DNA of 39,437 nucleotides from a bacterium (GCA_016781525.1 JADDQE010000017.1:1-39437); one strand, 5' to 3'; counted from the first letter of the stretch, positions 85-38,256 are shown. Program-made: numbers and translations. The notes: generated by a model from the sequence alone, not told the origin.

Positions 85-120
85 GACGAGCGGACGACCA
101 CTACTGGTCGCCCGCTCGTC
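85..120. repeat. 16-bp inverted repeat (hairpin) upstream of pstS
   Basis: Arms 85-100 and 105-120 are complementary at 15 of 16 positions around the 4-nt loop CTAC, so the RNA would fold into a long hairpin. No T-run follows on either strand. The likeliest role is a terminator or processing hairpin for a gene to the left of the window. It could also separate the pst promoter from upstream transcription. Confidence 0.6.
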
Positions 121-248
121 ATGCCCCCGTGTGCCCGTGGTGCAAGTATGGTCGGGCACCGTCAAGACAACATTATCGTTTTGGTAAGCTTGTATGAAGC
201 TATTCCAAACGTATGTACAACGCTTGCTAGTCCGCAAAATAAGGACGC

Positions 249-267
249 GTTAAGGCTATGTTATACT
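249..267 (+). promoter_or_regulatory. pstS promoter: extended -10 with 11-bp-spaced GTTAA/GTTAT repeat
   Basis: TATACT at 262-267 is preceded by TG one base upstream (259-260), an extended -10 that predicts a start near 274 and a leader of about 26 nt. No good -35 is visible, as often in activator-dependent promoters. GTTAA (249) and GTTAT (260) are spaced exactly 11 bp across this element. A second GTTAA pair at 9 and 20 has the same spacing. Direct repeats with an 11-bp period are the hallmark of PhoB/PhoP boxes, so phosphate control is plausible but inferred. Confidence 0.45.
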
Positions 268-299
268 GCGGAGCGCAAAGAGACAGGGACAAGTGTTTC

Positions 300-1115: not shown

Positions 1116-2041
1116 AAGAGCGACTGATTGGTTTTCTGCTGTTTCTGTCGGCGCTCGTGTCGCTTGCGTCGCTCGCCGTCATCACATTTTTCATTTTTGA
1201 GGCCGGCCTCCCGCTTATTTTTAAGGTCGGGCTAGGCACCTTTTTGGAAAGCAGCGCCTGGAGTCCGAGCGGCAAAAACCCGCAGTTCGGCATCGCATCG
1301 ATGATTCTTGGCTCGGTTTGGGTAACGCTGGGCGCTATCGTCGTGGGTGTGCCGCTTGGCTTGGCTGTAGCAATCTTCTCGGCGGAGCTTGCGCCGCCGC
1401 GCCTCGCGGCGATCATTCGTCCCGTAATCCAGCTACTGGCCGGTATTCCATCCGTGATCTACGGCTTTATCGGGCTCACCATCCTTGCACCACTCGTGCG
1501 CACCACCCTTGGCGGGCCTGGACTCAGCGTGCTGACGGCAGCCCTGATCCTTGGGATCATGATCCTGCCGAGCATCGTCAGTATTTCGGAGGACGCTCTA
1601 CGAGCCGTTCCACGCGCCTACCGTGAAGGTGCATTGGCCGTGGGTGCAACGCCCTGGCAGACAATCTGGCGCGTACTGGTGCCAGCCGCGCGGTCGGGGA
1701 TCGTCGCCAGCATTATCCTCGGCATGGGTCGTGCGCTAGGCGAGACAATGGCAGTGATTATGATGCTCGGCAACGCGCTGCAGGTGCCGCGCTCACCGCT
1801 CGACTCCGCCACAACCTTGACAAGCAACATTGGCTTGGAGCTGGCCTATGCCAGCGGCGCGCATCGTGAGGCGCTCTTTGCGACGGGTGTCGTCCTATTT
1901 GTGCTAATCATGGTGCTGAACATGCTTGCGAATGTGTTAACCGGTCGCGTCGTGCTCTGGCGCACACGACTGCCAGTTTCGCGCTCGATCTTCGCGCGCC
2001 TCCGCGGGCGACAGCCGGCGGGTGATAGGAGCGGATCATGA
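1112..2041 (+). CDS. pstC: Phosphate ABC transporter permease PstC
   Basis: One of the two membrane permeases that form the phosphate channel. The 309-residue protein is very hydrophobic, with about six membrane segments, the first near residues 10-32. It carries the binding-protein-dependent permease signature around EGALAVGATPWQT (roughly residues 170-182) and the Pst-type GMGRALGETMAV segment. PstC usually has the longer loop after the first helix, and this one has it (residues 45-60). It overlaps pstS by 4 bp and pstA by 4 bp (ATGA at 2038-2041), so the three are almost certainly co-transcribed and translationally coupled. Confidence 0.93.
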   Translation: MKERLIGFLLFLSALVSLASLAVITFFIFEAGLPLIFKVGLGTFLESSAWSPSGKNPQFGIASMILGSVWVTLGAIVVGVPLGLAVAIFSAELAPPRLAAIIRPVIQLLAGIPSVIYGFIGLTILAPLVRTTLGGPGLSVLTAALILGIMILPSIVSISEDALRAVPRAYREGALAVGATPWQTIWRVLVPAARSGIVASIILGMGRALGETMAVIMMLGNALQVPRSPLDSATTLTSNIGLELAYASGAHREALFATGVVLFVLIMVLNMLANVLTGRVVLWRTRLPVSRSIFARLRGRQPAGDRSGS

Positions 2042-2874
2042 ACCGCCACCAATCACAGCGCGCTGCCTATGGCTGCTTATGGGCCGCGGCGAGCATAACG
2101 ATCGTTATTCTGGCCATCATTATTATGTACGTTCTGTTACAGGGTTTGCCCTATCTGAGTCTCAACTTTCTCTTCGGGCGGCCCGAAGCCCAGGGACGGG
2201 AAGGCGGTATAATGCCGGCTATTCTCGGCACCTTGGCGCTGGGAGCGCTGTCGCTGATTATTGCGGTACCCCTAGGTGTGGGTGCTGCGGTCTTCCTCAC
2301 GGAGTACACGCGGCCGAGCGCCCTGACCACGATGATGCGCTTCGGCACAGACTCGCTGGCAGGGGTCCCGTCGATTATCTTTGGCCTCTTCGGGTTTATC
2401 TTTTTCGTGACGCGCCTGAACCTGAGCTGGTCGCTGCTCGCCGGCAGCCTCACTCTGGCTCTGATGGTCTTGCCCACCCTGATCCGCACTGCCGAGGAGG
2501 CCATCCGCGCCGTGCCGGTCTCGTACCGCGAGGTGAGCTACGGGCTGGGAGCATCCCGCTGGCAAATGGTGCGCACGGTCGTTCTGCCGAATGCGCTGCC
2601 GGGTATCGTCACAGGCATTATTCTGAGCTTTGGTCGGGCCGTTGGCGAGACTGCCGCCGTCATCTTTACCGCTGGAACTGCACTCAATATTCCAACGTCG
2701 GTCTTTTCGCCGACCCGAACGATGGCGGTGCACTTCTATATTTTAGCGGTTGAGGGTATCTCGCTGCCGATGGCCTATGCGACCGGAGCCGTGCTGATCG
2801 TAACGATTCTGATTATTAACGTCGCTGCCAACCTGTTTATCAGCCGGGGCATCGCCCGAACTGTCCGGCGGTAG
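2038..2874 (+). CDS. pstA: Phosphate ABC transporter permease PstA
   Basis: Second permease of the Pst channel, 278 residues, about six membrane helices. The EAA-loop region EVSYGLGASRWQM (about residues 165-177) would contact PstB, and SFGRAVGETAAVIFTAG is the PstA counterpart of the PstC GRALGET segment. It starts on the ATG that overlaps the pstC stop. After its stop, 32 nt separate it from pstB, the only real gap in the operon. Confidence 0.92.
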   Translation: MNRHQSQRAAYGCLWAAASITIVILAIIIMYVLLQGLPYLSLNFLFGRPEAQGREGGIMPAILGTLALGALSLIIAVPLGVGAAVFLTEYTRPSALTTMMRFGTDSLAGVPSIIFGLFGFIFFVTRLNLSWSLLAGSLTLALMVLPTLIRTAEEAIRAVPVSYREVSYGLGASRWQMVRTVVLPNALPGIVTGIILSFGRAVGETAAVIFTAGTALNIPTSVFSPTRTMAVHFYILAVEGISLPMAYATGAVLIVTILIINVAANLFISRGIARTVRR

Positions 2875-2906
2875 CATATCGTAAGCTAGGACCCGCGTAG
2901 AGCGCT

Positions 2907-3668
2907 ATGAGCGATATCAAGATTCAGATTGATCACTTCTCGTACACATACGGCGACGAGCCGCCGGTCCTACGCAACATCACCCTTAATGTCCGGCGTA
3001 ACTCGATCCTGACAATCTTCGGCCCCGCACGCGGTGGCAAAACAACCCTGCTGCGCTCACTGAACCGCCTCACCGATATCGACGAGCCAGGGAAGCGTCA
3101 GGGCCGTATATTGCTCGACGGCCAGGATATTTATGCTCCCAGCGTCGACGTTCCATCGCTGCGGCGGCGCATCGGGATGGTCTTCGCATTGCCGGTTGCC
3201 CTGCCGATGAGTATTTTCGACAACATCGCGTACGGGCCGCGGCTACAGGGAGTTCGATCGCCCTCGCGGTTAAGCGATCTTGTCCAGTTCGCGCTCGAAG
3301 CCGCCGCACTATGGGATGAGGTTCGTGATCGCCTGGACTCGTCGGCGCTGGCCCTGTCAGGTGGTCAGCAGCAGCGTTTATCGATCGCCCGTGTGCTGGC
3401 GCTCGAGCCCGAGGTAATACTTTTGGACGAGCCGACTGCGGCGCTCGATCCGATCTCCACGGCGAAAATCGAGGAGGCGTTGATTACCCTCAAGAGCGAG
3501 TACACAATTGTGATCGCACCGCACAACGTCCAGCAGGCCGGCCGAGTTGCCGACGACGCGGCCTTCTTTCTGATGGGGGAATGTGTCGAGGCCGGGCCTG
3601 CGTCTCAGCTCTTTACAGTGCCGCGCGACCGCCGCACCGAGGACTATATCACGGGCCGCTTCGGGTAG
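2907..3668 (+). CDS. pstB: Phosphate ABC transporter ATPase PstB (Q-loop variant)
   Basis: ATP-hydrolysing subunit that powers phosphate import. In the 253 residues I see Walker A as GPARGGKTT (39-47), the ABC signature LSGGQQQR (150-157), Walker B ILLDEP (171-176), the D-loop ALDP (179-182) and the switch histidine H206 in PHNVQQA. Oddities: Walker A reads PARG where most PstB have PSGC, and the Q-loop reads MVFALPVALPM (91-101) where the family norm is MVFQ, so the Gln that coordinates Mg and couples to the permease is Ala. The MSIFDNIAYGPR stretch after it is otherwise typical PstB. It follows pstA by 32 nt. Confidence 0.9.
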   Translation: MSDIKIQIDHFSYTYGDEPPVLRNITLNVRRNSILTIFGPARGGKTTLLRSLNRLTDIDEPGKRQGRILLDGQDIYAPSVDVPSLRRRIGMVFALPVALPMSIFDNIAYGPRLQGVRSPSRLSDLVQFALEAAALWDEVRDRLDSSALALSGGQQQRLSIARVLALEPEVILLDEPTAALDPISTAKIEEALITLKSEYTIVIAPHNVQQAGRVADDAAFFLMGECVEAGPASQLFTVPRDRRTEDYITGRFG

Positions 3669-3769
3669 CCTCCTTGGAGTGATCCAACCTCCGAAGGGGT
3701 GGCACGCCGTATGCAACGACCCTTGCAAGAGATGAGTATTCGCTCGTGGCTACATGAGGAGGACGAGGA

Positions 3770-4351
3770 ATGGATTTGTTGCAAAACTTACTCGGTGGTG
3801 GACAGCAACGTCAGGAATTTCAGGAGTTTGCCAATCGCTACGACCAGGGACCGCCCTACCAGGGCTTCCCGGGTGAAGAGGCTTACCAGCGCTATCAGCA
3901 AATTGCGCCGCAGCTGCCACCTGATGTGTATGAAGACGCGGCTCGCGAGTCATTCAGCCGTATGTCTCCACAGGAGCGACAGCAGTTCGGCCAAATGCTG
4001 CGCCAACGCTCGCAGCAGCAGGGCGTCAACTTTCCCGACGTTAACCACGACGGCATCGACGATCGCATGCAGGATCCAAATTACCTTGCGCAAATAACAG
4101 GCCGGATGCACCAGCAGCAGCCGAATCTACTGGGACAACTGCTCGGTGGTGGACAGCAGCAAGCACTCGGCGGCGGGGGTATCGGCGACCTGCTTAACAA
4201 TCCGCTGGCCAAGGCGGCTCTCGGCGGCATCGCGGCGATGGCCGTCAAGCGCATGATGAGCGGCGGATCCGGCGGCAACCAGGGTGGTCGCGGCGGCAAC
4301 CAGGGTGGTTTTGGCGGTAACCAGGGCGGCTTCGGCGGCATTCCGATGTAG
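3770..4351 (+). CDS. Hypothetical Gln/Gly-rich protein with a Ca-loop-like motif
   Basis: I do not recognise a family. The 193-residue protein starts after a strong Shine-Dalgarno (GAGGAGG, 3756-3762). Residues 14-85 are Gln- and Tyr-rich and probably helical. Residues 90-98 read DVNHDGIDD, like the acidic loop of dockerin, EF-hand or thrombospondin type-3 calcium sites. LLGGGQQ occurs twice (7-13 and 124-130). A small hydrophobic patch (about 143-160) precedes a Gly/Asn/Gln tail built from three near-identical 7-residue units. No signal peptide or clear membrane span is visible. It lies 101 nt downstream of pstB on the same strand and might be read through from it, but a link to phosphate uptake is not shown. 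Confidence 0.75.
   Translation: MDLLQNLLGGGQQRQEFQEFANRYDQGPPYQGFPGEEAYQRYQQIAPQLPPDVYEDAARESFSRMSPQERQQFGQMLRQRSQQQGVNFPDVNHDGIDDRMQDPNYLAQITGRMHQQQPNLLGQLLGGGQQQALGGGGIGDLLNNPLAKAALGGIAAMAVKRMMSGGSGGNQGGRGGNQGGFGGNQGGFGGIPM
4271..4333 (+). repeat. Three tandem 21-bp in-frame repeats (Gly-Asn-Gln tail)
   Basis: Units 4271-4291, 4292-4312 and 4313-4333 each encode GGNQGG plus R or F. The first two are nearly identical in DNA; the third differs mostly at third positions, as expected for an older duplication under protein-level selection. Copy number could vary between strains. Confidence 0.85.
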
Positions 4352-4365
4352 GCTCATCCAGGGCA

Positions 4366-4386
4366 GGCGCGCTGAGCAAGCGCGCC
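4366..4386. terminator. Hairpin between convergent genes
   Basis: GGCGCGCT (4366-4373) and AGCGCGCC (4379-4386) form a perfect 8-bp GC stem with a 5-nt loop, placed between the stop codons of two convergent genes (4351 and 4389). No T-run is present, so it is a possible bidirectional terminator rather than a canonical one. Confidence 0.5.
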
Positions 4387-4388
4387 GG

Positions 4389-4631
4389 CTACCCAAGCTC
4401 CAGCACAGTTAATCCCCGCTCCAGCATAAAATTCTGTACTTCGGGCACGTCCCGCAGCGCGACGACCCGCCGTTCACCCCCACGCTCGACAACGACCTCA
4501 AACCCAGTGACACGCCCATGTATTCCGTGGTATATGCTGCGCTGGAGTACTGGTTCCTCGATTACCCAGCCCGCCATTAGCCAGGACCGCAACTGATCGA
4601 GCCGTGGCTCACCGCTTCCTGCCCGCTCCAC
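4389..4631 (-). CDS. Small hypothetical protein (80 aa)
   Basis: Unrecognised. An 80-residue start at the GTG at 4631 is preferred because AGGAGGAG (4641-4648) lies 9 nt upstream; a longer GTG start at 4688 has no such site. The sequence looks like a real folded domain: a helix (RLDQLRSWLMAGWVIEEPVL) followed by beta-rich GRVTGFEVVVERGGERRVVALRDVPEV and a short C-terminal helix. There is no signal or membrane segment. It lies downstream of the tRNA-Arg/tRNA-Ser unit and its terminator, on the same strand. Confidence 0.65.
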   Translation of the reverse strand: MERAGSGEPRLDQLRSWLMAGWVIEEPVLQRSIYHGIHGRVTGFEVVVERGGERRVVALRDVPEVQNFMLERGLTVLELG

Positions 4632-18714: not shown

Positions 18715-18992
18715 CACTTGCGCTCGCTTTCTCGGGAAGATATCTTCAATCCGCGTGCCAACCATCGTATTGCGTATCCCACACGGCAGCTGCCTACGGG
18801 CCCATTCATTATGCGCTGCCCCTCCAACCTGATGGCTTGCCCTTGGGCCGTTTCAACTGCTTCTAGGAAGCGCAATTCGCACACGTCGTCCAACACGGGT
18901 GCAACTACCAGCTTGGACGACGGCCTCGTGACGGTTGCACCGATCGGGAGGTTTCCGCTGGCAGGCGATAAAGGTCGAGCTATAACAGCCAA

Positions 18993-19001
18993 TGGTATAA
19001 T
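18993..19001 (+). promoter_or_regulatory. Extended -10 promoter of the thioredoxin-TPR gene
   Basis: TGGTATAAT carries a perfect TATAAT (18996-19001) with the TG extension. No convincing -35 is seen. The predicted start near 19008 leaves a leader of about 25 nt to the ATG at 19033. Confidence 0.65.
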
Positions 19002-19032
19002 GGCACTAGGGATAGTACCAAAGAGGCTGATC

Positions 19033-19887
19033 ATGGCAGCGACACCTTCAGCAGTGATCGACGTCAACGAGCGCGAGTTTGCCACGGCCGTGCTGCAACG
19101 GTCGGCCGACGTGCCGGTGGTCGTTGACTTTTGGGCGCCTTGGTGCGGGCCGTGCCGGGTGCTGGGGCCGGTGCTTGAGCGCCTTACGAACGAGATGGAC
19201 GGCGCTTTCGTGCTCGCCAAAGTCAACGTCGATCAAAATCAACGTTTGGCGGCGCAGTTTGGAGTGCAAGGCATTCCTGCTGTCAAGGCGTTTCGCGGCG
19301 GCAAGGTCGTCGAACAATTTACCGGTGCGCTGCCCGAAAGTCAGGTACGAGCGTGGCTCAAAAAGCTGGTTCCATCGGAGCTCGACGGCCTGGTTGAGAT
19401 GGCGGCCAATCTTGAGACGAGTGACCCGCAGGGGGCGGCTGATCTCTACCGCCGCGCCCTAAGCATCGATGGAGCACATGGACCCAGCCTGCTGGGGCTA
19501 GGGCGCGCGCTGACCCTCCTCGGCGATCCTGAAGCGTCGAAGGTGCTACAACGTATCAAGCTGGGTGCACCTGAATATCCTGCTGCGCAGTCGTTGCTTG
19601 AGCTCACGCCTTTTCTTGCCGCAGCTGGAGGAGATCTCGCGAGCTTGCATCAGCAGGTCGTGGTCGATCCCAAGGACAGCACGGCCCGTTGGCAGCTCGC
19701 GGCACAACTGGCACGCCGACAACAGTGGGAGGATGCGCTGCGTCACTTGTTGGCAATCGTGCAGCGCGACCGCAACTTCCAGGATGATGCCGCGCGACGC
19801 GCCATGCTGGCAATCTTCACGCTGCTCGGCGATCCAAATCCCGTTGTCAGTCATTACCGGCGACAGCTCGCCAGCGCCCTGTTTTAG
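19033..19887 (+). CDS. Thioredoxin-TPR protein, CnoX/YbbN-like
   Basis: A 284-residue protein with an N-terminal thioredoxin domain (about 8-112) whose active site is WAPWCGPC (C38, C41). A tetratricopeptide-type helical region follows (about 120-284; for example DPQGAADLYRRALSIDGAHGP). This is the architecture of CnoX (YbbN), a redox-linked holdase that passes clients to GroEL. In E. coli the first Cys is lost, but here CxxC is intact, so reductase activity is likely. AGAGG lies about 6 nt before the ATG. A long in-frame upstream extension from 18661 is only open sequence over the promoter. Confidence 0.88.
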   Translation: MAATPSAVIDVNEREFATAVLQRSADVPVVVDFWAPWCGPCRVLGPVLERLTNEMDGAFVLAKVNVDQNQRLAAQFGVQGIPAVKAFRGGKVVEQFTGALPESQVRAWLKKLVPSELDGLVEMAANLETSDPQGAADLYRRALSIDGAHGPSLLGLGRALTLLGDPEASKVLQRIKLGAPEYPAAQSLLELTPFLAAAGGDLASLHQQVVVDPKDSTARWQLAAQLARRQQWEDALRHLLAIVQRDRNFQDDAARRAMLAIFTLLGDPNPVVSHYRRQLASALF

Positions 19888-20045: not shown

Positions 20046-20423
20046 ATGGCCGTTGTGATGGTCGTCGAAGACGAAGATGTATTGCTTGAAATGGTCGCCG
20101 CGTTGATCGAGGATAACGGCTATCGCGCGGTGCTCGCGACCAACGGACGAGAGGCACTCGACGCCCTGCAGTCAGAGCCGGAGCCTCCGTTCCTGATTAT
20201 TTCAGACGTGATGATGCCTCAGATGAATGGCATTGCCTTTGCCAAGGCCGTTAGGAGTAATCCTCGTTACCACAACGTTCCGATCGTGTTGATGAGCGCC
20301 GCCGGAGCCCCTTCCACGGATGGAATAGTTGATCATTTCGTCCCCAAGCCCTTTGAGCTCGAGCATATCGAGCTGTTGCTCGAGCGATACGCCCGAAACA
20401 ACCTGTCGTCGAACGCGATCTGA
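20046..20423 (+). CDS. Stand-alone receiver-domain response regulator
   Basis: A CheY-like single-domain receiver of 125 residues. The acidic pocket (E8, D9), the phospho-acceptor D54 in IISDVMMP, S84 and the conserved Lys101 in PKPFE are all present, so it should be phosphorylated. There is no output domain. The ATG at 20046 is chosen because the fold begins immediately after it. It is the first gene of a same-strand block with a second, broken receiver, a B12-binding protein and a histidine kinase, and is a likely phosphate acceptor for that kinase. Confidence 0.85.
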   Translation: MAVVMVVEDEDVLLEMVAALIEDNGYRAVLATNGREALDALQSEPEPPFLIISDVMMPQMNGIAFAKAVRSNPRYHNVPIVLMSAAGAPSTDGIVDHFVPKPFELEHIELLLERYARNNLSSNAI

Positions 20424-20438
20424 GATTCACAACAAGGA

Positions 20439-20726
20439 GTGGCGCATGTCGCGTATAATGGCGGTGAAGGACTCGAGCGGGCGCAAAAGCTGAAGGCCGA
20501 CCTTCTGATTATCGACATTATGATGCCGGATATGAGCGGCGTTGACCTGATTCAGCGGCTGCGCAGTTTCCCGCAGCATGGGGCAACGCCAGTAATATTG
20601 ATCAGTGCCGGTGCCCGTCCGCAGCGGCCACTGCCCGAGGTAACGTTCGTGGCAAAGCCCTTCGACATGAATGAGATGCTTGAGATGGTGGCCCACTCGT
20701 TACATCTCGACGGCGGCAGCCAATGA
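20439..20726 (+). pseudogene. Receiver domain missing its first strand and helix
   Basis: The open frame (95 codons from a GTG) starts at what should be strand 2 of a receiver (VAYNGGEGLERA). It keeps the acceptor Asp26 (IIDIMMP) and Lys73 (AKPFD) but lacks strand 1 with the acidic pair and helix 1. A good Shine-Dalgarno (AAGGAG, 20434-20439) and an ATG at 20446 do exist, but in another frame: they encode MSRI, a common receiver start, and terminate after 15 codons at 20493. The receiver GTG itself overlaps the Shine-Dalgarno. This fits an internal deletion of about 120 bp that fused start and body out of frame. It could still be translated weakly. Confidence 0.65.
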
Positions 20727-21397
20727 CAGACGCCCTGAGACCCATACGGGATGTATTCACGGACGCGCTTAAGCAGGGCGACGAGCCGGCGGCGCGCTCG
20801 GTGGTGGAGCAGCTACGTGCGCGCGGCATTGCTCCACACACGATCTACTATGAGGTCTTCGCGCCCAGCATGGTAACGATCGGTGAGCTCTGGGAACAAA
20901 ATCAGCTTACGGTCGCCGAGGAGCATCTGGCGACATCGATTACTGAGCGGTTGATCGGCCAGCTGTCGCCATCCTTTAATCAGCCGCTGGCTCCCGTGCA
21001 GCGCGGCAGCGTGCTGCTAGGATGCGTTGCAGGTGAACGTCACGTCTTGGGCCTGCGGATGTTGTCAGATCTCTTTCGCCAGCAAGGCTGGCGGGTGCTC
21101 TACCTCGGCGGTGACGTACCCAATAGTGACTGCGTGCGCTTAGCAGTTCGAGTCAACGCCGACCTCATCGCGATCTCGGCTGGAAGTGAGCGGCTTATTC
21201 CTAACGTGCGGAGCTTGATCGAGGAGCTGCGCTCGGTGTTGCCTAATGTGGGGATTGTCGTCGGCGGTGCCGTCTTTATCCGCAATCCCGACCTGTGGCT
21301 TGAGGTAGGCGCTTCCCTGTATGATCCCGACCCGCACCGTGTAGTGGCGCTTGCAACGACAGGCTATGGAGCCGTCGTGCCCGAGCCAATGGAATAG
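20723..21397 (+). CDS. B12-binding CarH-like sensor domain protein, no DNA-binding domain
   Basis: A 224-residue protein with a B12-binding helical cap (about 10-85) and a Rossmann-type cobalamin domain (about 95-215). The cap has W57, V64, E67 and H68 (ELWEQNQLTVAEEHLATS), at exactly the spacing of the adenosyl-pocket residues W131, V138, E141 and H142 of Thermus CarH. The lower-ligand motif is GERHVLGL (H107), the CarH-type ExHxxG rather than DxHxxG, and GGDVP follows. The MerR DNA-binding domain of CarH is absent, and Glu58 replaces CarH His132, the light-state ligand. Its ATG overlaps the previous stop (ATGA) and a histidine kinase follows 30 nt later. A corrinoid shuttle is the main alternative. 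Confidence 0.82.
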   Translation: MTDALRPIRDVFTDALKQGDEPAARSVVEQLRARGIAPHTIYYEVFAPSMVTIGELWEQNQLTVAEEHLATSITERLIGQLSPSFNQPLAPVQRGSVLLGCVAGERHVLGLRMLSDLFRQQGWRVLYLGGDVPNSDCVRLAVRVNADLIAISAGSERLIPNVRSLIEELRSVLPNVGIVVGGAVFIRNPDLWLEVGASLYDPDPHRVVALATTGYGAVVPEPME

Positions 21398-21427
21398 GAC
21401 TCGCAGTTTGCTAAAGATAGGCGGCAT

Positions 21428-23479
21428 ATGACCGAAGGACTTTCCAACCCGTCTCCGCCAGGTCCGTGGCCAGCCGATCTTGCCGAGGCAGTGCTGCAAA
21501 CAACCCCCGACCTGCTCATCGCCTTGAGTCCAGGGGGCCGGATTCAGCATCTCAACGCCGCCGCGCGTCACACGCTCCAACTGAGGGCAGAAGCGCTGGC
21601 AGATGCCCGCTTTGTGGATCTCCTGGAAGCTGGCAGCCGCGCCAAGGGGCAGCGGCTGCTGGAGGAGGCAGCCACTAGCGAGGCTCAGCAGGTTTATGAG
21701 CTCAACCATGTAACGGGCGACGGCCAGATCGTGATGGTTGGATACCGTGTCGTGCCGCTCCAACGGCCCGATACCCCGATTGTGCTGATCGGCCAGCCCT
21801 CAGCATCGACAGTTACCATAACCGAGCGTCTGATTGCACTGAATCGACGGCTCGAGGCACTCTTTACCTTAGCTGCATCGGCCTCGCGCTCGCTGGTATT
21901 GCACGAGCTGCTCGACGGTGCGCTCTCTGTTATTCGATCTGAGCTACAGCTTCAGGCCGCGGCTATCGTACTGACCGGCATGCCCGTCGATGCGCATGGC
22001 GGGGAGCGCATGCCGTTGAACCCTCAGCAGCTGCGACTAGCGGTCCAGCAAGGCTTCGCTGCCTCCTTCGTCGATAAGCTAGCCAATCTCAGCGACCTCC
22101 CCGCGTTTTGGAACCCCAGCATTCGACATGAGCGTCTTTCGCTGGTGCAGGGAACAGCCGACGAGGTTGGAATCTACCCCTCGGATCTCCAGTACCTTAC
22201 AGGTCCACTGCTTACTGTCGCCGGGGTGCCGCTGGTCAGTGAGACACGACAGCTGGGCTGGCTCTACGTCGTCACCGATCGTTACAACGCATTGCCGCCC
22301 GACGAGCTCGACCTGCTTGAGACTGTCGGCAATCTGCTTGGTCCTACGGTGGAGAACGCCCGGCTGTATGACGCCCTTCGTGAAACCAGCAGCCGCTTAG
22401 CCGCCGTGCTCGACAGCATCGACAGCGGTGTGCTCTTGAGTGACCAGAGCGGTGTTGTACGCTACGCCAATGCGCGCCTCGGTACGCTGCTAGAAGTCGA
22501 TGTGCGCCAATGGCCCGGTCATCCACGCGCTGAGGTGATGCCGGCAACACTCCAACCATTGAAGGCATCCGATCACCTCTTCGACGGCGAGCTCTGGGAA
22601 GTCGCAGGAGCCACAGCACGAGTGTTGCGGCGCTTTGCCCAGCCCGTCAAGGATCAGCAGGGCGCGGCCCTAGGCTCGATCGAGGTTTATAGCGACATCA
22701 CACAGCTCCACCGCACCAATCAGCTGCGTGACGAATTTGTCGCGGCGGCGGCGCATGACTTGAAAACTCCGGTCACGGCGGTAAAGGGCTATGCACAGAT
22801 CGCGCTGCGCCTGGCGCGCAAGCTAGAAGAACCGCGTCTCGTCCAACAGCTTTCGATGATTAACGCGCGCAGCGACGATCTAGCACTGCTCATGGATTCG
22901 CTGTTGGATATGTCACGGATCCAAGCGGGTCGCCTGCGTCTAGACCCGGTGCCCGGCGTCGTGCAAGATTTGGTCGGCCACGTCATCAAACACTTCGACT
23001 TTGACCTTCAGCGCCGGCAGCGTTCCATCCAGTGTGAGCTACCGAACGAGCCGCTCGAAGTCGAGTGGGATCGCCACCGCATGGAGGGCGTGCTGATCAA
23101 TCTGATCGGTAACGCGTTCAAGTACTCGCCCGATGGTGGAGATGTATTGATCCGCGTGCAGCATGTTCTCGACGCGCCCGGTTTCGGCAACGATGCGGTG
23201 GAGTTAGCAGTTACCGATTACGGGATCGGCATTCCCGCCGCCGAGCGCGAGAATATTTTCGGCCGCTTCTACCGAGTGCGTGAGGCAGTTGAGCAAGGCT
23301 TTCGCGGAAACGGCATCGGCTTGTACACTAGTCACTCAATCGTCGACGCGCATGGGGGGCGCATCTGGGCCGACGACGCGCTCCACGGCGGCCCCGGCAC
23401 GACGATGTACATTCTTATGCCACGTGTCGCCCAGCCAAACCGCGAAAACGAGAGCGTTATGGCCGGAAGCAGCGCTTAA
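21428..23479 (+). CDS. Soluble PAS-GAF-PAS sensor histidine kinase
   Basis: A 683-residue kinase with no membrane segment, so it senses something in the cytoplasm or through a partner. Order: PAS (about 18-130), GAF (about 140-310), second PAS (about 320-430), the dimerisation/phosphoacceptor domain with H443 in AAAHDLKTPVTAVKG, and the ATPase domain with the N-box asparagine near 562 (LIGNAFKYSPDGG), DYGIGIP and GNGIGLYTSHSIV. The phosphoacceptor motif HDLKTP is intact. It lies 30 nt after the B12-binding gene in one direction with two receivers upstream, so it is probably the kinase of that module. Confidence 0.92.
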   Translation: MTEGLSNPSPPGPWPADLAEAVLQTTPDLLIALSPGGRIQHLNAAARHTLQLRAEALADARFVDLLEAGSRAKGQRLLEEAATSEAQQVYELNHVTGDGQIVMVGYRVVPLQRPDTPIVLIGQPSASTVTITERLIALNRRLEALFTLAASASRSLVLHELLDGALSVIRSELQLQAAAIVLTGMPVDAHGGERMPLNPQQLRLAVQQGFAASFVDKLANLSDLPAFWNPSIRHERLSLVQGTADEVGIYPSDLQYLTGPLLTVAGVPLVSETRQLGWLYVVTDRYNALPPDELDLLETVGNLLGPTVENARLYDALRETSSRLAAVLDSIDSGVLLSDQSGVVRYANARLGTLLEVDVRQWPGHPRAEVMPATLQPLKASDHLFDGELWEVAGATARVLRRFAQPVKDQQGAALGSIEVYSDITQLHRTNQLRDEFVAAAAHDLKTPVTAVKGYAQIALRLARKLEEPRLVQQLSMINARSDDLALLMDSLLDMSRIQAGRLRLDPVPGVVQDLVGHVIKHFDFDLQRRQRSIQCELPNEPLEVEWDRHRMEGVLINLIGNAFKYSPDGGDVLIRVQHVLDAPGFGNDAVELAVTDYGIGIPAAERENIFGRFYRVREAVEQGFRGNGIGLYTSHSIVDAHGGRIWADDALHGGPGTTMYILMPRVAQPNRENESVMAGSSA

Positions 23480-23658: not shown

Positions 23659-25509
23659 ATGACTGATCAGGCCCAAGCATACACCTTTAAGGCCGAGGTA
23701 CAGCAGCTATTGCACATTCTATCGCAGGCGCTGTACACCGATCGCGAAATCTTTCTCCGCGAGCTTATCTCGAATAGCTCGGATGCGCTCCACCGGATGC
23801 GTGTTGAGCAGCTCACCAACAGTGATGTCGTCGATCGTGACGCCGAGCTTGCTATTCGCGTATCCAGCGACGAGAACGCCAAGCGTGTTACCATCAGCGA
23901 CACTGGCATCGGCATGACCGAGGAAGAGCTTATCCAGAACTTGGGGACCATCGCGCACTCGGGCGCACGTGCCGTGATCGAGCGCCTTGCAAAGGAGCAG
24001 CGCTCTGACGTTATCGGCCAGTTTGGCGTAGGCTTCTACTCCGTCTTCGCCGTCGCCGACCGCGTTGTCGTTACCTCACGCTCGTTCCAGCCGGATGCCG
24101 CGGCAGTGCGCTGGGAGTCGACCGGCGGCGATAGCTACACGGTCTCGGCGAGCGAGCGAACAGAGCGCGGCACAACGATTGAGGTGTATCTCAAAGACGA
24201 TGCCAAAGAGTTTGCACAGCCCTGGCAGGTCAAGCAAATCATCAAAAAGCACTCCGACTTTGTTGCCTTCCCGATCTACTATGCGGATGAAGATAAGCCG
24301 GTCAATCAGACCAAGCCGCTCTGGCGGCGCGCGCCACGTGAGGTCGAGGCCGAGGCTTACAAGGAGTTTTACCGGCAGCTGACGATGGATTGGGAGCCGC
24401 CCCTCCATCAGTTGCACCTGTCGACCGACGCGCCGATCGACCTTCATGCCATTTTGTTCATCCCCTCTAAGCGCGAGCGCGGCCTGATCGAGCGCCGGAC
24501 CGAGGGTAAGATCAAGCTCTACTCGCGCAGCGTACTGATCCAGGAAGAGGCGAAAGACCTCCTCCCGAACCACTTCCGGTTTGTGGAGGGCGTTGTCGAC
24601 AGCGAAGATTTACCGCTGAACGTATCACGCGAGTCGGTTCAGCGCACGCCCGAGATTCAGCGCATCCGCAAAACACTGACAAGCCGCCTCACCCGCGAGC
24701 TCGCGCAGATGGCGGAGAACCAGGCTGAAACCTACCGCACCTTCTGGGCTGAGTTTGGGCCTTTTCTCAAGGAGGGCATCGTCGTTGAGCCCAGCAGCAA
24801 GGACGACCTGCTAAAGCTCCTGCGCTTTCACAGCACGAAAGGCGATGAGCTTGTCTCACTAGCGCAGTACAAGGAGCGCATGGTCGAAGGGCAGAAGGCG
24901 ATCTACTACGTGCTGGCCAATGACCTCGAGAGCGCCCGCCGCAGCCCACATCTGGATGCGCTCGAAGCGCGAGGGATCGAAGCCCTGCTGCTCGTCGATT
25001 TGGTCGACGGCTATGTGATGAACACCTTGCGCGAGTACGACGGCACGCCGCTCGAGAACGCCGACAACCCCAACCTCGACCTGCCCGAGCTCGCCGATGA
25101 GGAGTCGGCTGAGACGATCGACCAGGCCGTCTTCGACCAGTTGGCGGTACGGATTAAGGACGTGCTCGGCGACCGCGTTACCCAGGTACGGCCGTCGAAG
25201 ACCCTCAAGCATAATCCGGCTCGCCTGGTTGCCGCCGACGGCGCGGGTCAGCGTGATATGCATCGGGTTCAGCGGCTGATCAACCGTGATTACGAGGTCC
25301 CAGCTTCCATTTTGGAGCTCAACCGCAGCCATCCGCTCATCCGCAGCCTGGCACAGCTGCACACGACGCACCCGGACAATCTGCTGGGCAATGTCGTCAT
25401 CGAGCAGCTATACGACAGCGCCCTGCTGCTGGATGGGCTCCATCCCAATCCGGCGCAGATGGTCCCGCGAATTCAGCAGCTCATGGAGGCTGCGGTCAGG
25501 GCCGACTAG
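23659..25509 (+). CDS. htpG: Molecular chaperone HtpG (bacterial Hsp90)
   Basis: ATP-dependent dimeric chaperone of the cytosol. The 616 residues match the family length. The GHKL ATPase pocket shows ELISNSSDALHRMR, DTGIGMTEEELIQNLGTIAHSG and GQFGVGFYSVF, with the middle-domain ISRESVQ-type Arg loop as NVSRESVQRTPEI. The C-terminal dimerisation region is present (HPNPAQMVPRIQQLMEAA). Shine-Dalgarno GAGGAG lies 8 nt before the ATG. The gene has its own promoter and terminator and so is a single-gene unit after the sensor-kinase block. Confidence 0.97.
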   Translation: MTDQAQAYTFKAEVQQLLHILSQALYTDREIFLRELISNSSDALHRMRVEQLTNSDVVDRDAELAIRVSSDENAKRVTISDTGIGMTEEELIQNLGTIAHSGARAVIERLAKEQRSDVIGQFGVGFYSVFAVADRVVVTSRSFQPDAAAVRWESTGGDSYTVSASERTERGTTIEVYLKDDAKEFAQPWQVKQIIKKHSDFVAFPIYYADEDKPVNQTKPLWRRAPREVEAEAYKEFYRQLTMDWEPPLHQLHLSTDAPIDLHAILFIPSKRERGLIERRTEGKIKLYSRSVLIQEEAKDLLPNHFRFVEGVVDSEDLPLNVSRESVQRTPEIQRIRKTLTSRLTRELAQMAENQAETYRTFWAEFGPFLKEGIVVEPSSKDDLLKLLRFHSTKGDELVSLAQYKERMVEGQKAIYYVLANDLESARRSPHLDALEARGIEALLLVDLVDGYVMNTLREYDGTPLENADNPNLDLPELADEESAETIDQAVFDQLAVRIKDVLGDRVTQVRPSKTLKHNPARLVAADGAGQRDMHRVQRLINRDYEVPASILELNRSHPLIRSLAQLHTTHPDNLLGNVVIEQLYDSALLLDGLHPNPAQMVPRIQQLMEAAVRAD

Positions 25510-31169: not shown

Positions 31170-31787
31170 TTAGAGCACAATCAGCCCGCGCCGTGCCCCC
31201 GCCCGTACAGCCTCGGTGCGGCTGGCGACGCCGAGCTTGGCATAGATCGCGGATACATGGAACTTAACAGTGTGCTCGCTGATATGGAGACGCTCGGCAA
31301 TCATTTTGTTCGCCAGCCCCTGCCCGATCAGCTGCAGCACTTCTAGCTCGCGACTCGTCAGTGGCTCGACCAGCGGCTCGGCTCGGCTGGTCCGGCTAGG
31401 CGCTGGTGCTTGGAGCAGCTGTGTCGCAATATCGGGATGAATCGTGATCAAACCATGGAACAGGGCGTTCACCGCGGCGGTCAGCTCATCCGAGCCAGCA
31501 TCGCTTGGCAGCACAGCCCATGCGTGAGACACCGGCAGTGGCAGCGACAGGTTGGTCCAGTCGTCGACAAGGAACAGGACGCCGCGGAGCGGGTCGGGTA
31601 GGACCAAGGGCGCTGGTCCAAGCGCACCGTGGATCACCGCCACACTGGCTGCGCTGAGCGGGGGATGCCGGAGATCGCCTGGTCCCGCCGCATCGCCTAC
31701 GATGCTCAGAGCCGGATCAGACGCCAGCAGTACGCGCAAGCCTGCACGTACTGCTGGTGCTTGAGCAATCACCGCGACCGGAATCAC
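31170..31787 (-). CDS. LuxR/NarL-type regulator with degenerate receiver
   Basis: A 205-residue transcription regulator. The C-terminal LuxR helix-turn-helix (about 140-200) is textbook: LTSRELEVLQLIGQGLANKMIAERL and ISEHTVKFHVSAIYAKLG. The N-terminal half keeps receiver outlines (PAVRAGLRVLLASDP) but not its chemistry: the acidic pair is AQ (8-9) and the strand 3 acceptor site reads VIHGAL with no Asp. It therefore cannot be phosphorylated in the usual way and may respond to a ligand or partner protein. It starts with GTG overlapping the TGA of the upstream protease (GTGA), showing translational coupling to it. Confidence 0.88.
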   Translation of the reverse strand: MIPVAVIAQAPAVRAGLRVLLASDPALSIVGDAAGPGDLRHPPLSAASVAVIHGALGPAPLVLPDPLRGVLFLVDDWTNLSLPLPVSHAWAVLPSDAGSDELTAAVNALFHGLITIHPDIATQLLQAPAPSRTSRAEPLVEPLTSRELEVLQLIGQGLANKMIAERLHISEHTVKFHVSAIYAKLGVASRTEAVRAGARRGLIVL

Positions 31788-32716
31788 GCAGCTGCCTGCA
31801 CACTTGCGGGGGCATCGAGCGCAACATCGACAGTGCGCAGCTCGCCGCCACGCAGCACGCGCACCGCAATCCGGTCGCCGACCGAGTGCTGCGCGAGCGC
31901 ATACTTCAGGATATGGGCATCGTCGACAGCTGTATGGGCAATGTCGAGCAGTACATCTCCGATATACAGACCAGATCGCGCCGCCGCACTATCATCCTGC
32001 ACGGCGACTACCAGCAGGCCCAGCTCGCGACGAACGGCGGTTCCAATGGCCTCCGGCAGCTCAACTGGCTGTACAGCAACACCGAGGACTGGCTGTTGCC
32101 CCTCCGCGACCGCCAGAAACTGGGTTGCAATATGGCTTGGAATCGCTACGCTGAGGTCGCCACCAAAGATCATCGCGTTGATTCCAATAACACAACCACG
32201 TGCATCGAGCAGCGGCCCCCCGGAGTTACCTGGAGCGAGCTGAACATCCGAGCGCAAATACTCTGCCTTACTGTGGCGCCAACCGGTCTCGATTGCGCCG
32301 ACCCCACTGATGATGCCGGCAGTTACGACGCCACGGCGGCCCCACGGATTACCGATGGCCAGCGCAAGCTGACCCACTCGCACAGCCTCCGAAGCGCCAA
32401 CCGGAGCTGCCGCGAGTCCGATCGCGTCGACCTTTAGCGCGGCCAAGTCAAGCATCGGATCGCGCGCAATCACTGTCGCCCGTAGCTCACGATCATCGCT
32501 GAATAACACGGTCGCGTGCTCGCGGTTGGCGACGACGTGATGATTCGTCATAATGATCCCGTCCGCGCGCCAGACAATTCCCGAGCCTGAGCCGCGAGCG
32601 CCGCTCCGCACCTGGACGACACTGTCCTTGACCTCGGCTACAAGCTCGGCAAGCTCGTCCGCGATGTTGGCGGGCAGGCGCGCCTCTACCGCCGTATCCT
32701 CAACTTCCGCAAACAT
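31784..32716 (-). CDS. HtrA/DegP-like serine protease with PDZ domain, no signal peptide
   Basis: A 310-residue trypsin-fold protease: catalytic H60 (TNHH), D90 (MLDLAAL) and S165 (GNSGGPL), followed by a PDZ domain (about 210-300; GLYIGDVLLDI). Unlike DegP, DegQ or HtrA, its N-terminus is a charged helix with no signal peptide or membrane anchor, so the protein should stay in the cytoplasm unless exported some other way. A Shine-Dalgarno GGAG lies 5 nt before the ATG. It is coupled to a LuxR regulator downstream and preceded by a second protease of the same type. Confidence 0.9.
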   Translation of the reverse strand: MFAEVEDTAVEARLPANIADELAELVAEVKDSVVQVRSGARGSGSGIVWRADGIIMTNHHVVANREHATVLFSDDRELRATVIARDPMLDLAALKVDAIGLAAAPVGASEAVRVGQLALAIGNPWGRRGVVTAGIISGVGAIETGWRHSKAEYLRSDVQLAPGNSGGPLLDARGCVIGINAMIFGGDLSVAIPSHIATQFLAVAEGQQPVLGVAVQPVELPEAIGTAVRRELGLLVVAVQDDSAAARSGLYIGDVLLDIAHTAVDDAHILKYALAQHSVGDRIAVRVLRGGELRTVDVALDAPASVQAAA

Positions 32717-32736
32717 ATCTACTCCGTTAGTTCTTC

Positions 32737-32890
32737 GGTATCAGGCAACCGGCATCAGGTATCAGGCAACAGCAGTCAGCTATCAACGGTCAGGTGACGT
32801 GTATCAAGCATCACGTATCATGGGCAGGCACCTACTCTCAGCTCCCTGCCCTCTGTTCTCTGCTCCCGTCGCCCCTTGCCCCTAGCTTCT
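32737..32890. repeat. Low-complexity intergenic word repeats between the two proteases
   Basis: The 13-mer GGTATCAGGCAAC occurs twice (32737-32749, 32758-32770), with related TATCA words continuing to about 32820. A pyrimidine-rich stretch then ends in CCCCTAGCTTCT (32879-32890). The latter is the inverse complement of a word in the repeat at 13229-13240, and it contains the stop codon of the second protease gene. Confidence 0.8.
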
Positions 32891-33787
32891 CGCCCCAACC
32901 GTGACATTTAGCTCGCGGAGCTCACCACCACGGATAATGTGAACCGGCTGTGCCTGACCCACTTTGTCGGCGGTCAAGAAACCCTGCAGATCGTCGGCAT
33001 CCTCGACGAGCTGGCCGCTCATTGCTACGAGGATATCCCCGAGCAAGAGACCACCGTTTGCAGCGGGGCTATTTGGCTCGACGTGCACCAGCAGCAGCCC
33101 CACATTGGGTCGTGTACCGTTGACTGTCGGGATGGCGTCGGGCAGCTTCACAGGTTGCGAGCTAATGCCCAGATAACCGCGCTTGAGCGATCCGTGCTGC
33201 GCTAACGTTTCGGCCACGCGCCAGGCGATCGCGCTCGGAATACCGAGGGCTGGGCCATTGGAGAGACCGGTGGTAATCATGCCCACGATTGCCCCATCCG
33301 CAGTAACCAGCGCACCACCGGAAAAGCCCGGATAAGGAGTTGCATCCGTCCGAATGACCCGTTCGAGCATCGCGCCACGCCCGCCGCGCCACGGCCCACC
33401 GACGGCGCTCACAATTCCGAGGCTTGCCATTGGCCCACCTAGTGAGGGTCGTCCAACAGCCAGAATCAGTTGCCCTACACGTGCCTCGGCGCTAGCCTGG
33501 GTCGCCGGCTCGAGCGTCACGCCCGAGACACGCAGAACCGCGATATCCGAGGCAGGATCGCGTCCGAGCAGCTTTGCCTTGCCCTCTGTGCCGTCGTGCG
33601 TGACAATCCCAATGTCTTCGTCGCGCTCGACGACATGATCCGCGGTTAAAACGAGGTCAGGCGCGGTCGCTATACCGCTCGCCGGGTAACGCTGCCGCCC
33701 ATTAACCAACACGGTCGACCGGCCCGCCCGCTCGACTGCGTCCGCCATCTGCGTTGAAAGATCGGCAAGTACCGTTGATCCGCTCAT
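32882..33787 (-). CDS. HtrA-like serine protease with PDZ domain, second copy
   Basis: A 301-residue paralogue: catalytic H51 (TADHVV), D81 (SDIAVL) and S156 in PGFSGGAL (usual PGNSGG; Asn is Phe), with a PDZ domain near 205-295 (GGLLLGDILVAM). Like its neighbour it has no signal peptide or membrane segment. GGAGG lies 8 nt before the ATG. It lies 165 bp upstream of the other protease on the same strand, separated by low-complexity repeats, and the two differ enough to be an old duplication. Confidence 0.88.
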   Translation of the reverse strand: MSGSTVLADLSTQMADAVERAGRSTVLVNGRQRYPASGIATAPDLVLTADHVVERDEDIGIVTHDGTEGKAKLLGRDPASDIAVLRVSGVTLEPATQASAEARVGQLILAVGRPSLGGPMASLGIVSAVGGPWRGGRGAMLERVIRTDATPYPGFSGGALVTADGAIVGMITTGLSNGPALGIPSAIAWRVAETLAQHGSLKRGYLGISSQPVKLPDAIPTVNGTRPNVGLLLVHVEPNSPAANGGLLLGDILVAMSGQLVEDADDLQGFLTADKVGQAQPVHIIRGGELRELNVTVGARS

Positions 33788-35957: not shown

Positions 35958-36650
35958 CTACTCGCGGCCGAAGCGGTAGCCGATACCGCGCTGCGTATGG
36001 ATGTAGCGCGGGCTATCTCCGTTAGGCTCGAGCTTGTTCCGTAGCTTACGGATCCGCACCCAGAGCGAGTCCGGATCACCCTCTTCGCCAACGCCCCAGG
36101 CTTTGCGCAGGAGGGTAGCCGTGGGTACGATTGTGTTGCTCCGCTGCATCAGCAGAAACAAGATCCGCGCTTCGATTGGTGTGAGGGTTACCTGCTCGCC
36201 GGCCACCCACATGAGGCGGTGGCCGAAGTCGACGGTCAAGTTTTCGTCGACGACCACGCGCTCACCCGGATGGAGACCACCCTCGTAAAAGCGGGACAGC
36301 AACCGATTGAGCCGTGCCCGCAGCACACCGTAGCTAAACGGCTTGCTCATGTAGTCGTCGGCGTACTCTTCAAGCCCTTTGATCGTGGTCTGCTCGTCGG
36401 TAATCGACGTCAAGATCATGATCGGAATTTCAACCGCCCGCCGAAGCCGCTCGGCCAGCTCGAAGCCGGTCATATCCGGCATCATCAGGTCAAGGATCGC
36501 CGCGTCGGGCCAGTGCTGGTTGACCTTCTCGAGGGCAGTCTCGCCATCAGGCGCGGTGATTACCTCGAAACCATCCGCGAGCAGACCAGCTTCCAACGAA
36601 CGCCGCACCACTAGATCATCATCAGCGACTAGCAATCGCCACTTGCTCAT
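35958..36650 (-). CDS. OmpR/PhoB-family response regulator
   Basis: A 230-residue two-component regulator. Its receiver has the acidic pair D10/D11, acceptor D54 (ILDLMMP) and K103 (SKPFSYG). It is followed by a winged-helix DNA-binding domain (about 130-228; LTPIEARILFLLMQRSNTIVPTATLLRKAW and the GIGYRF wing). The ATG at 36650 has GAGGA about 9 nt upstream and sits inside the 3' end of the histidine kinase gene (29-bp overlap), which marks the two as a cognate pair. Target genes are unknown; its phosphate relevance is not shown. Confidence 0.93.
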   Translation of the reverse strand: MSKWRLLVADDDLVVRRSLEAGLLADGFEVITAPDGETALEKVNQHWPDAAILDLMMPDMTGFELAERLRRAVEIPIMILTSITDEQTTIKGLEEYADDYMSKPFSYGVLRARLNRLLSRFYEGGLHPGERVVVDENLTVDFGHRLMWVAGEQVTLTPIEARILFLLMQRSNTIVPTATLLRKAWGVGEEGDPDSLWVRIRKLRNKLEPNGDSPRYIHTQRGIGYRFGRE

Positions 36651-38256
36651 GGTATTTGTCCTCGAGAGGGATGGTAAAGTGGATAGTCGTCCCAACATCA
36701 AGGTCGCTCTCGGCCCAAATCGACCCACCGTGTGCCTGCACGACCTCCCGGCAGAAGTTCAAGCCCAACCCGGTGCCGCGTCGCAGCCCGCTCTGCTGTG
36801 TACGGAAGAAGCGCTCAAAGATACGTCCGACATCAGCGGGCGCAATCCCAACACCAGTGTCGCGCACGGTAAACTGCGCTGCGGCTCCATCGGCGGTATA
36901 GCCAGCGGTTACATAGACGCCGCCTTTACGCGTGAACTTGAGCGCGTTGTTGACCAGGTTGATGACCACACGCGTAAGCTTCTCCACATCGCCCACCACA
37001 ACCGACTCAGGCGGTAAGTCGATGGTGAGTTCCAGGTTTCGCTCTGCGGCGGCCCCGGCAAGCTGATCCAGCACCCGCTCGCGCAACACTTCGAGGAGAA
37101 TTGGCTCCTTGGTCAACTCGAGCAGGCCAGACTCGGCGCGGTACACGTCCAGGATATCGTTGATCAGCTCTTCTTGGGCCGCACATGCCCGCTGAGCCAT
37201 GTCGATAAATTGCTGATCCGACTCGCCCTTGACGCTCATGCTGAGTACATGCAAACACCCCAGCACGCCCGCCAATGGCCCACGTAAGTCGTGGGTCAAC
37301 ATATGAACAAAGTATTCACGCGAGGCCTCGGCCTCTTTGAGCTGCGTGTACAAGCTCGCATTGTGGAGCGCCGAAATTACCTGAGTGGCAATGGCCAGTA
37401 CAAGGGGTAGCTGCTCGGGCCCGAATTTATAGGGCTCGGTATGCGTCAAGGTCAGGACGCCAAGTTGGACGTCATCGCGAATCAAGGGAATTGCGAGCGC
37501 CGTCCGAGTGCGCACCATGTTATCGTGCAGTGGTAGCCACCGCTCATCATTTTGTGTATCCTCTACCAGCTGGGGTTCACCCGTTCGTAGCGCGAGACCC
37601 GCCAGGCCATTCGCGATAACCTGCACGCTCGCATCACGAATATACGGGAGACCTGCGGGAACGCGTGCTACGATTGTGCGCCAAGTATTGCGCTTCGGAT
37701 CCCTCACGATGACGCTGCCCTGGGTGGCGTCGATCATGTTCACCATCAAATTAAGGGTTTCCGCGATCAGTTGATCGACGTCAAGGGTACTGTTGAGCTG
37801 CTGGCCGATCCGGTACAGCAGCTCGTTCTTGTTGCGCTCGTTGATCAGAGCATCCTGCACCTGCTTGAGTCGTAGCAGCGCACGCACCTTCGCGATCAGC
37901 TCAGCACTTTGCACCGGCTTCGGCAAGAAATCATCGGCCCCGACGTTCAGACCCTTGACCTTATCCGACAGGTCTTGCTTCGCCGTAATCAGCATAATCG
38001 GAATGTAGCCGATATTCGCCTCAGCTCGGATTGCTTCAACCACCTCGTAGCCGCTCATACGCGGCATCATGACATCAAGCAAAATCAGATCGGGCGGCTG
38101 CTGCCGTACCATGGCTAGCGCCTGTAGCCCGTCATTGGCGGTCTCGATCGCGTAGCCCTGCGAGCCGAGCATCATTCGCAGCAAATCCAAGTTATCTTCG
38201 TGATCATCGACGATCAGGATTCGCGGACGAGCCGTGACACTCATGCCTTGTCGCAT
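36622..38256 (-). CDS. Hybrid REC-GAF histidine kinase
   Basis: A 544-residue soluble kinase with an N-terminal receiver (D17/D18, acceptor D61 in LLDVMMP, K113), a GAF domain (about 150-305), a phosphoacceptor helix with H322 (MLTHDLRGPLAGVLG), and an ATPase domain with N437 (NLVNNALKF), DTGVGIAP and GTGLGLNF. A receiver at the N-terminus means an upstream kinase probably controls it, so it can act as a relay. AGGAG lies 6 nt before the ATG at 38256. It overlaps and is presumably the partner of the OmpR-type regulator. Confidence 0.94.
   Translation of the reverse strand: MRQGMSVTARPRILIVDDHEDNLDLLRMMLGSQGYAIETANDGLQALAMVRQQPPDLILLDVMMPRMSGYEVVEAIRAEANIGYIPIMLITAKQDLSDKVKGLNVGADDFLPKPVQSAELIAKVRALLRLKQVQDALINERNKNELLYRIGQQLNSTLDVDQLIAETLNLMVNMIDATQGSVIVRDPKRNTWRTIVARVPAGLPYIRDASVQVIANGLAGLALRTGEPQLVEDTQNDERWLPLHDNMVRTRTALAIPLIRDDVQLGVLTLTHTEPYKFGPEQLPLVLAIATQVISALHNASLYTQLKEAEASREYFVHMLTHDLRGPLAGVLGCLHVLSMSVKGESDQQFIDMAQRACAAQEELINDILDVYRAESGLLELTKEPILLEVLRERVLDQLAGAAAERNLELTIDLPPESVVVGDVEKLTRVVINLVNNALKFTRKGGVYVTAGYTADGAAAQFTVRDTGVGIAPADVGRIFERFFRTQQSGLRRGTGLGLNFCREVVQAHGGSIWAESDLDVGTTIHFTIPLEDKYHEQVAIASR

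Follow-up and report, generated by a model that had tools for sequence, protein, structure and literature searches.

The protein encoded at positions 20723–21397 of the window is, judged by its domains, its signature residues and its placement in a tree, a photoreceptor-type cobalamin-binding (B12) domain without a DNA-binding domain of its own, and it would be expected to bind adenosylcobalamin (AdoCbl) and to respond to light. The window, a stretch of 39,437 nucleotides, is contig G000:C24 of a bacterial genome of 4.9 Mb that is 86% complete and consists of 263 contigs. We consider it rather probable that the B12 protein is an AdoCbl-dependent sensor subunit that acts via the adjacent histidine kinase, with a KaiC-like ATPase among the outputs in related bacteria. 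The original prediction had described the locus as a two-component module. Kinase and receivers are indeed there, but the label of a plain two-component system does not fit: the operon of the relatives is built around the KaiC-like ATPase, which was lost in the window's genome.

Organization of the locus

The features of the locus are listed in Table 1. For the region 20046–23479 the coordinates and reading frames of the original prediction were correct, and the Pfam matches bear out its description of two receivers, one of them broken, next to a soluble PAS-GAF-PAS histidine kinase.

Table 1. Features of the B12-kinase locus and its neighbours (positions in the window).
Feature	Position	Strand	Basis or remark
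Thioredoxin-TPR protein, upstream neighbour, context only	18985..19887	+	Synteny in G002, G003 and G005
Receiver 1, intact, 125 aa, stand-alone CheY-like response regulator	20046..20423	+	PF00072, 65 bits, positions 1-106
Apparent deletion junction: ribosome-binding region and GCATG left from the KaiC-like gene, fused to the receiver-2 frame	20424..20449	+	Alignment with G002
Receiver 2 remnant, 95 aa	20439..20726	+	PF00072 match only from position 24 of 111
Putative stand-alone photoreceptor-type cobalamin-binding protein, 224 aa	20723..21397	+	Pfam, signature, tree, AlphaFold2 model
Light-response signature G54xxW57, E67H68, G104xxH107, G129xxxP133	20882..21121	+	Codon positions; signature according to PMC11796333
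Soluble histidine kinase, PAS-GAF-PAS-HisKA-HATPase, 683 aa	21428..23479	+	Pfam; H/N/G boxes
HtpG chaperone gene, downstream neighbour, putative operon member	23659..25509	+	Synteny in G001, G002 and G005

Orthologues of receiver 1 are present in the relatives G002, G003 and G005. The remnant of receiver 2 lacks β1-α1 and the acidic pair and has no well-spaced start; since its GTG overlaps the ribosome-binding sequence, it is probably poorly translated. A complete receiver 2 of ~130 aa is found in G001, G002, G003 and G005. The kinase matches PAS_4, GAF (weakly), PAS, HisKA and HATPase_c in Pfam. With HisKA and HATPase_c domains and intact H, N and G boxes it is a two-component histidine kinase, and no membrane-type hydrophobic stretch was found along the protein. 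It is the most likely partner of the B12 protein, which it would contact directly.

The cobalamin-binding protein

Residues 10–195 of the B12 protein match the Pfam families B12-binding_2 (60.9 bits) and B12-binding (72.4 bits). The B12 domain begins at the N-terminus, and the Pfam search gave no MerR or HTH match, in agreement with the original prediction. Our alignment likewise agrees with its placement of W57, V64, E67 and H68 at the spacing of W131, V138, E141 and H142 of CarH. The lower-ligand motif, also named there, reads E105-x-H107-x-x-G110.

The signature of light-responsive cobalamin domains in the SignatureFinder definition consists of GxxW, EH, GxxH and GxxxP (PMC11796333). In that study all four signature-bearing proteins tested were photoactive, and one tested protein without the signature was not. 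A regular expression for the signature matched the orthologues (5/5) and the solved B12 photoreceptors (4/4) and no solved corrinoid enzyme (0/5). The residues G54, W57, E67, H68, G104, H107, G129 and P133 are invariant across the five orthologues, and the same eight are also invariant in an alignment with the four solved photoreceptors and two other sequences added.

A sequence search of the PDB ranked SasPcob first (1.6e-24), followed by CtMerR, AbDPcob and CarH. The AlphaFold2 model of the protein, built from a shallow alignment of 5 sequences, has a pLDDT of 82 and a pTM of 0.59; its top match in a fold search was the dark state of the photocobilin SasPcob (8j2w) with a TM-score of 0.79. 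In a tree of B12 domains (58 rows, 200 bootstrap trees) the protein is split from the corrinoid methyltransferase proteins and MetH with a support of 100/99. It lies outside the CarH branch, and its sister group among the photoreceptor domains is not firmly resolved. Signature, grouping and fold are all those of a light-responsive cobalamin-binding domain. The label of a CarH-like sensor used in the original prediction therefore needs a shift of emphasis: the domain is of the CarH/photocobilin type, but the photocobilin B12 domain is closer than that of CarH by sequence and by fold.

A role as a corrinoid methyltransferase shuttle or as a subunit of another B12 enzyme is very unlikely. Weak NCBIfam matches to the pyl_corrinoid and MtgC models would point that way, but all of them are far below cut-off, the EH cap and GxxW are missing from such proteins, and no methyltransferase gene lies nearby. 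For the methyltransferase role, the tree and the signature rule it out; the protein does not cluster with the methyltransferase corrinoid proteins, a grouping that would have spoken against the original prediction.

The His132 position and cobalamin supply

In 5/5 orthologues the position of CarH His132 is occupied by a glutamate (Glu58). The original prediction had noted this replacement and had considered a reversible, altered or absent photochemistry. The replacement stands, but absence is answered by SasPcob, AbDPcob and CtMerR, which carry Gln, Tyr and Arg, respectively, at this position and are all photoactive (PMC11796333). Since these proteins already do without His132, Glu58 is no objection to photoactivity. 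The H132A variant of CarH retains photolysis of the Co-C bond, with formation of a hydroxylated Co(III) species, but break-up of the tetramer is impaired (PMC10442372). Taken together with the photoactive proteins lacking His132, this variant leads us to expect photolysis to aquo- or hydroxocobalamin in the B12 protein. Since the adenosyl group is expelled on photolysis (PMC10979010, PMC10442372), the photocycle is unlikely to be reversible; the reaction is expected to be one-way, and fresh AdoCbl would then be needed. Glu58 also removes the His132 switch behind the break-up of the CarH tetramer (PMC10442372), so that the signal would have to pass in some other way.

The window's genome encodes an adenosyltransferase. 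It also encodes a separate CarH-like MerR-B12 protein with an equivalent of His132, which at 179.5 bits is below the cut-off of 400 of the NCBIfam CarH equivalog. A search of the genomes of the genus found no photosynthetic reaction centre, and for this reason a role in light sensing is argued by analogy with non-phototrophic carriers of CarH.

The B12 protein might instead report the cobalamin status of the cell to the kinase (AdoCbl as opposed to none or hydroxocobalamin) and not light. We regard this as the less probable function. Any AdoCbl-capped domain can report AdoCbl occupancy, and both the missing reaction centres and the CarH-like protein already present in the genome would fit such a role. 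The completeness of the signature, together with the photoactivity record of the signature-bearing proteins described above, argues against it and for a light sensor. Sensing of cobalamin status and of light can coexist.

Gene order in relatives and the KaiC-like ATPase

Orthologues of the B12 gene with 52–64% identity were found in three genomes of the same genus (G001, G002 and G003) and in one of a sister genus (G005). A scan of genome contigs yielded two close relatives, whose records are identical to G001 and G002, plus two distant ones, and a phylum sample of 400 genomes contained no further close relative beyond this family (f1). As far as the contigs reach, the gene order is nucleotidyltransferase – thioredoxin/TPR – receiver 1 – KaiC-like – receiver 2 – B12 – kinase – HtpG. 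The contig of G001 starts inside the KaiC-like gene, with receiver 1 off the contig, and that of G003 ends inside the kinase gene; in G002 the reading frame of the KaiC-like gene is broken at about mid-gene. The B12 gene overlaps or abuts that of receiver 2, near the KaiC-like gene. Its adjacency to the kinase gene, which the original prediction had expected in related genomes, is kept in 4/4 relatives of the family that have the gene, and also in the more distant G073 and G027.

The KaiC-like protein (519 aa in G003) comprises two RecA/KaiC domains, both with Walker A motifs. Its scores are below the NCBIfam cut-offs for clock KaiC (198 vs 546 and 265 vs 408). The alignment places a Ser-Tyr pair at the position of the Ser-Thr pair of KaiC, which we take to be the KaiC autophosphorylation site. 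No KaiB was found in the genomes of the family that were searched. A Kai clock operon, with kaiB and a clock-type kaiC beside the B12 gene, was thus not found in the searched genomes of the family and occurs only in G073.

Loss of the KaiC-like gene

In an alignment with G002, the window follows the region upstream of the KaiC-like gene up to its GCATG and resumes at a GCATG within receiver 2, close to codon 37 (about codon 35–40). Approximately 1.65 kb are absent relative to G002, comprising the KaiC-like gene together with strand and helix 1, the first third of receiver 2. They were apparently lost by a deletion at a 5-bp microhomology. An assembly artefact is possible, but the microhomology of ~5 bp is far shorter than the usual assembly word lengths, which much exceed this value. 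We also considered that the KaiC-like gene was retained elsewhere in the genome; a search found no orthologue, the best paralogues having 36% and 33% identity in a genome that is 86% complete.

The B12 and kinase genes showed no sign of relaxed selection following this loss. A relative-rate comparison with G002 gave p = 1, and dN/dS was about 0.11 and 0.15 with dS saturated. The unaccelerated rates fit a recent deletion and equally a B12-kinase pair that is still in use without KaiC. It is improbable that the module in the window is a decaying remnant without present function. The loss of the KaiC-like gene and of the receiver-2 start, with no KaiC orthologue found elsewhere in the 86% complete genome, would be consistent with decay, but the frames of receiver 1, the B12 protein and the kinase are open, all signature residues are retained and the rates show no acceleration, which a recent deletion would not yet have caused.

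A second linkage to KaiC

G073 belongs to another family of the same order. On a short contig of 5.5 kb from this genome (88% complete), genes for a B12 protein, a kinase, a 268 aa receiver protein, KaiB and KaiC follow each other on one strand. At both the B12/kinase and the kinase/receiver border the stop codon of one gene overlaps the start of the next; a few bases separate the receiver gene from KaiB, and KaiC comes close behind. KaiB matches PF07689 with 96 bits, and KaiC, although cut by the contig end, exceeds the NCBIfam cut-offs for clock KaiC (595 vs 408 and 570 vs 546). KaiA3 occurs in Roseiflexus (PMC11372060). Roseiflexus-type genomes have the order kinase – KaiA3 – KaiB – KaiC, and the receiver protein of G073 is found at the place of KaiA3. 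Its similarity to KaiA3 of the Roseiflexus type is weak (25–30%), and hence we call it KaiA3-like mainly for its position and its receiver domain. The B12 domain of G073 bears the light signature. It stands apart from the clade of the window in the tree, the two being joined in 0/200 bootstrap trees, which suggests an independent recruitment.

G012, from another family, contains a closely similar receiver 1 – KaiC-like – receiver 2 cluster followed by a peptidase gene, without B12 and kinase genes. Since the window conversely has the B12-kinase pair without KaiC, B12 and kinase appear to behave as a unit. In G027 a kinase – KaiC – receiver cluster and a B12 – kinase pair lie on separate contigs; the B12 partner in this pair has a possible, weakly matching photoglobin-like part at its N-terminus. 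The two kinases of G027 are the nearest to the window kinase among those compared (37% and 34%). Chloroflexaceae-type genomes instead have PAS – B12 – PAS clusters, and they also have full-length photocobilins; relatives of the Chloroflexus type, about 365 aa long, can be aligned to the globin part of SasPcob.

Proximity of B12 and KaiC genes was not accepted as proof by itself, since by a rough estimate about 0.7 such pairs within 2.5 kb are expected by chance over the 82 genomes of the order. We therefore place the weight on the repeated gene order with overlapping genes on the same strand. Wherever else in the order B12 and KaiC genes share a contig, tens of kilobases or more lie between them, as judged by eye from the compared tables.

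It is also conceivable, at a low probability, that the KaiC-like ATPase or the receivers are the direct target of the B12 protein and that the kinase is an independent sensor within the operon. The position of the B12 gene against receiver 2 in the relatives and its linkage to kaiBC in G073 would fit such a direct action. In the window, however, B12 and kinase genes are intact and constrained with KaiC gone and receiver 2 broken, and G027 likewise has a B12-kinase pair without KaiC; both observations favor signaling via the kinase.

Proposed mechanism and implications

Based on these results we propose the following mechanism for signaling via the kinase. In the dark, AdoCbl would be bound under a cap formed by W57, E67 and H68, with H107 as the lower ligand. 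Light, probably green and otherwise blue, would break the Co-C bond and yield aquo- or hydroxocobalamin, not a bis-His adduct. Photolysis would alter the helical bundle of the B12 protein and its contacts, and this change would be handed on to the soluble kinase by protein-protein contact. The kinase would then phosphorylate the stand-alone receivers, of which receiver 1 alone is intact in the window. In the relatives the output may include action on or through the KaiC-like double ATPase encoded between the two receivers, which was apparently deleted in the lineage of the window along with the receiver-2 start. The signal would run from the B12 protein to the receivers, and a role in timing may be envisaged.

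A broader reading, which we put forward tentatively and hold to be rather doubtful, is that cobalamin photoreceptors were recruited at least twice in the Chloroflexota as the light input of systems of the KaiC type, leading from B12 protein to kinase, receiver (KaiA3-like in G073) and KaiC. If true, a Kai timer outside the cyanobacteria would receive its light input through B12, and the species of the window would be a natural KaiC-deletion variant. The locus bears on the route of light signals to non-cyanobacterial Kai systems and on the role of KaiC relatives without KaiB. With a B12 protein of the photoreceptor type encoded in one operon with a kinase, stand-alone receivers and KaiC, a route from light to KaiC can be tested directly on the purified proteins. 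Likely control of a kinase would join the repression of DNA and the control of a cyclase as a role of B12 photoreceptors, which could be of use for green-light optogenetic kinases. In the searchable literature, the coverage of which is incomplete, we found no B12 photoreceptor described as linked to KaiC, so that the novelty is provisional.

Comparison with known systems

AerR is a stand-alone B12 antirepressor that signals through a protein partner, a repressor. The protein of the window is also a stand-alone B12 protein and would likewise signal via a partner, but AerR (7te2) is much less similar to it than SasPcob (2.4e-6 vs 1.6e-24), and its partner is not a kinase.

CarH (TtCarH, 5c8a; PMC10442372) has the same B12 domain of a four-helix and a Rossmann part, and equivalents of its residues W131, V138, E141, H142 and H177 are present in the window protein. 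In contrast to CarH, the latter has no MerR domain, a glutamate in place of His132 and a separate branch in the tree, and its score against the NCBIfam CarH equivalog is 63.3 bits with a cut-off of 400.

The set B12 – kinase – KaiA3-like – KaiB – KaiC of G073 resembles the KaiA3-KaiB3-KaiC3 system (PMC11372060), modules of KaiC, kinase and receiver, and the kinase – KaiA3 – KaiB – KaiC order of Roseiflexus-type genomes, with a B12 gene added. The KaiC-like protein of the window's relatives differs in being without KaiB in their genomes and in missing the cut-offs for clock KaiC.

The photocobilins (SasPcob, 8j2w/8j2x; AbDPcob, 8j2y; PMC10979010) provide the closest solved B12 domain. They share with the window protein the signature and a residue other than His at position 132. 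The window protein, which ends with the B12 domain, differs from them in having no biliverdin-binding globin (photoglobin) domain and in adjoining a kinase, and KaiC in the relatives. In its light-adapted state SasPcob activates AbDGC and is thus a stand-alone B12 photoreceptor acting by protein contact (PMC10979010).

KaiC linkage and other arrangements of B12 genes

The operon of G073, a genome from another family of the order, serves as the second KaiC linkage of a B12 gene. The KaiC-like gene of the same-genus genome G002 may be breaking down as well, since it carries an apparent frameshift near its middle; alternatively, a sequencing error may lie behind the frameshift.

Within family f1, to which the window belongs, reaction-centre genes are present in G004 (G004:C94, L125), which lacks an orthologue of the window B12 protein, whereas the genomes carrying the B12-kinase operon yielded no reaction centre.

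Feature coordinates
Feature	Locus	Positions	Strand	Remark
B12 - kinase - receiver (KaiA3-like) - KaiB - KaiC operon	L100 (G073:C509)	3-4435		another family of the order
KaiC-like gene	L037 (G002)	2889-4381		apparent frameshift
PAS(-STAS) - B12 - PAS clusters	L042	4182-6144		Chloroflexaceae-type genomes
	L043	1211-3264
	L106	6780-8776
	L093	6318-8322
~720-750 aa proteins, C-terminal B12 domain	L103	6384-8636		family f5
	L091	1-2157		family f5
368 aa B12-domain protein gene overlapping histidine kinase gene	L046 (G027)	802-3199
Receiver-GAF-HisKA-HATPase protein	window	36622-38256	(-)	second soluble kinase in window
Two adjoining trypsin-PDZ (HtrA-like) protease genes	window	31784-33787	(-)

The B12 proteins of the four PAS(-STAS) - B12 - PAS clusters, all from Chloroflexaceae-type genomes, are stand-alone and of the photoreceptor type, and a kinase is absent from these clusters. 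Both family f5 proteins contain a long middle region without an assigned domain; the L103 protein additionally carries DUF4388. Besides its B12 domain, the G027 protein has a possible photoglobin-like part at its N-terminus, and this locus is possibly a photocobilin-kinase pair.
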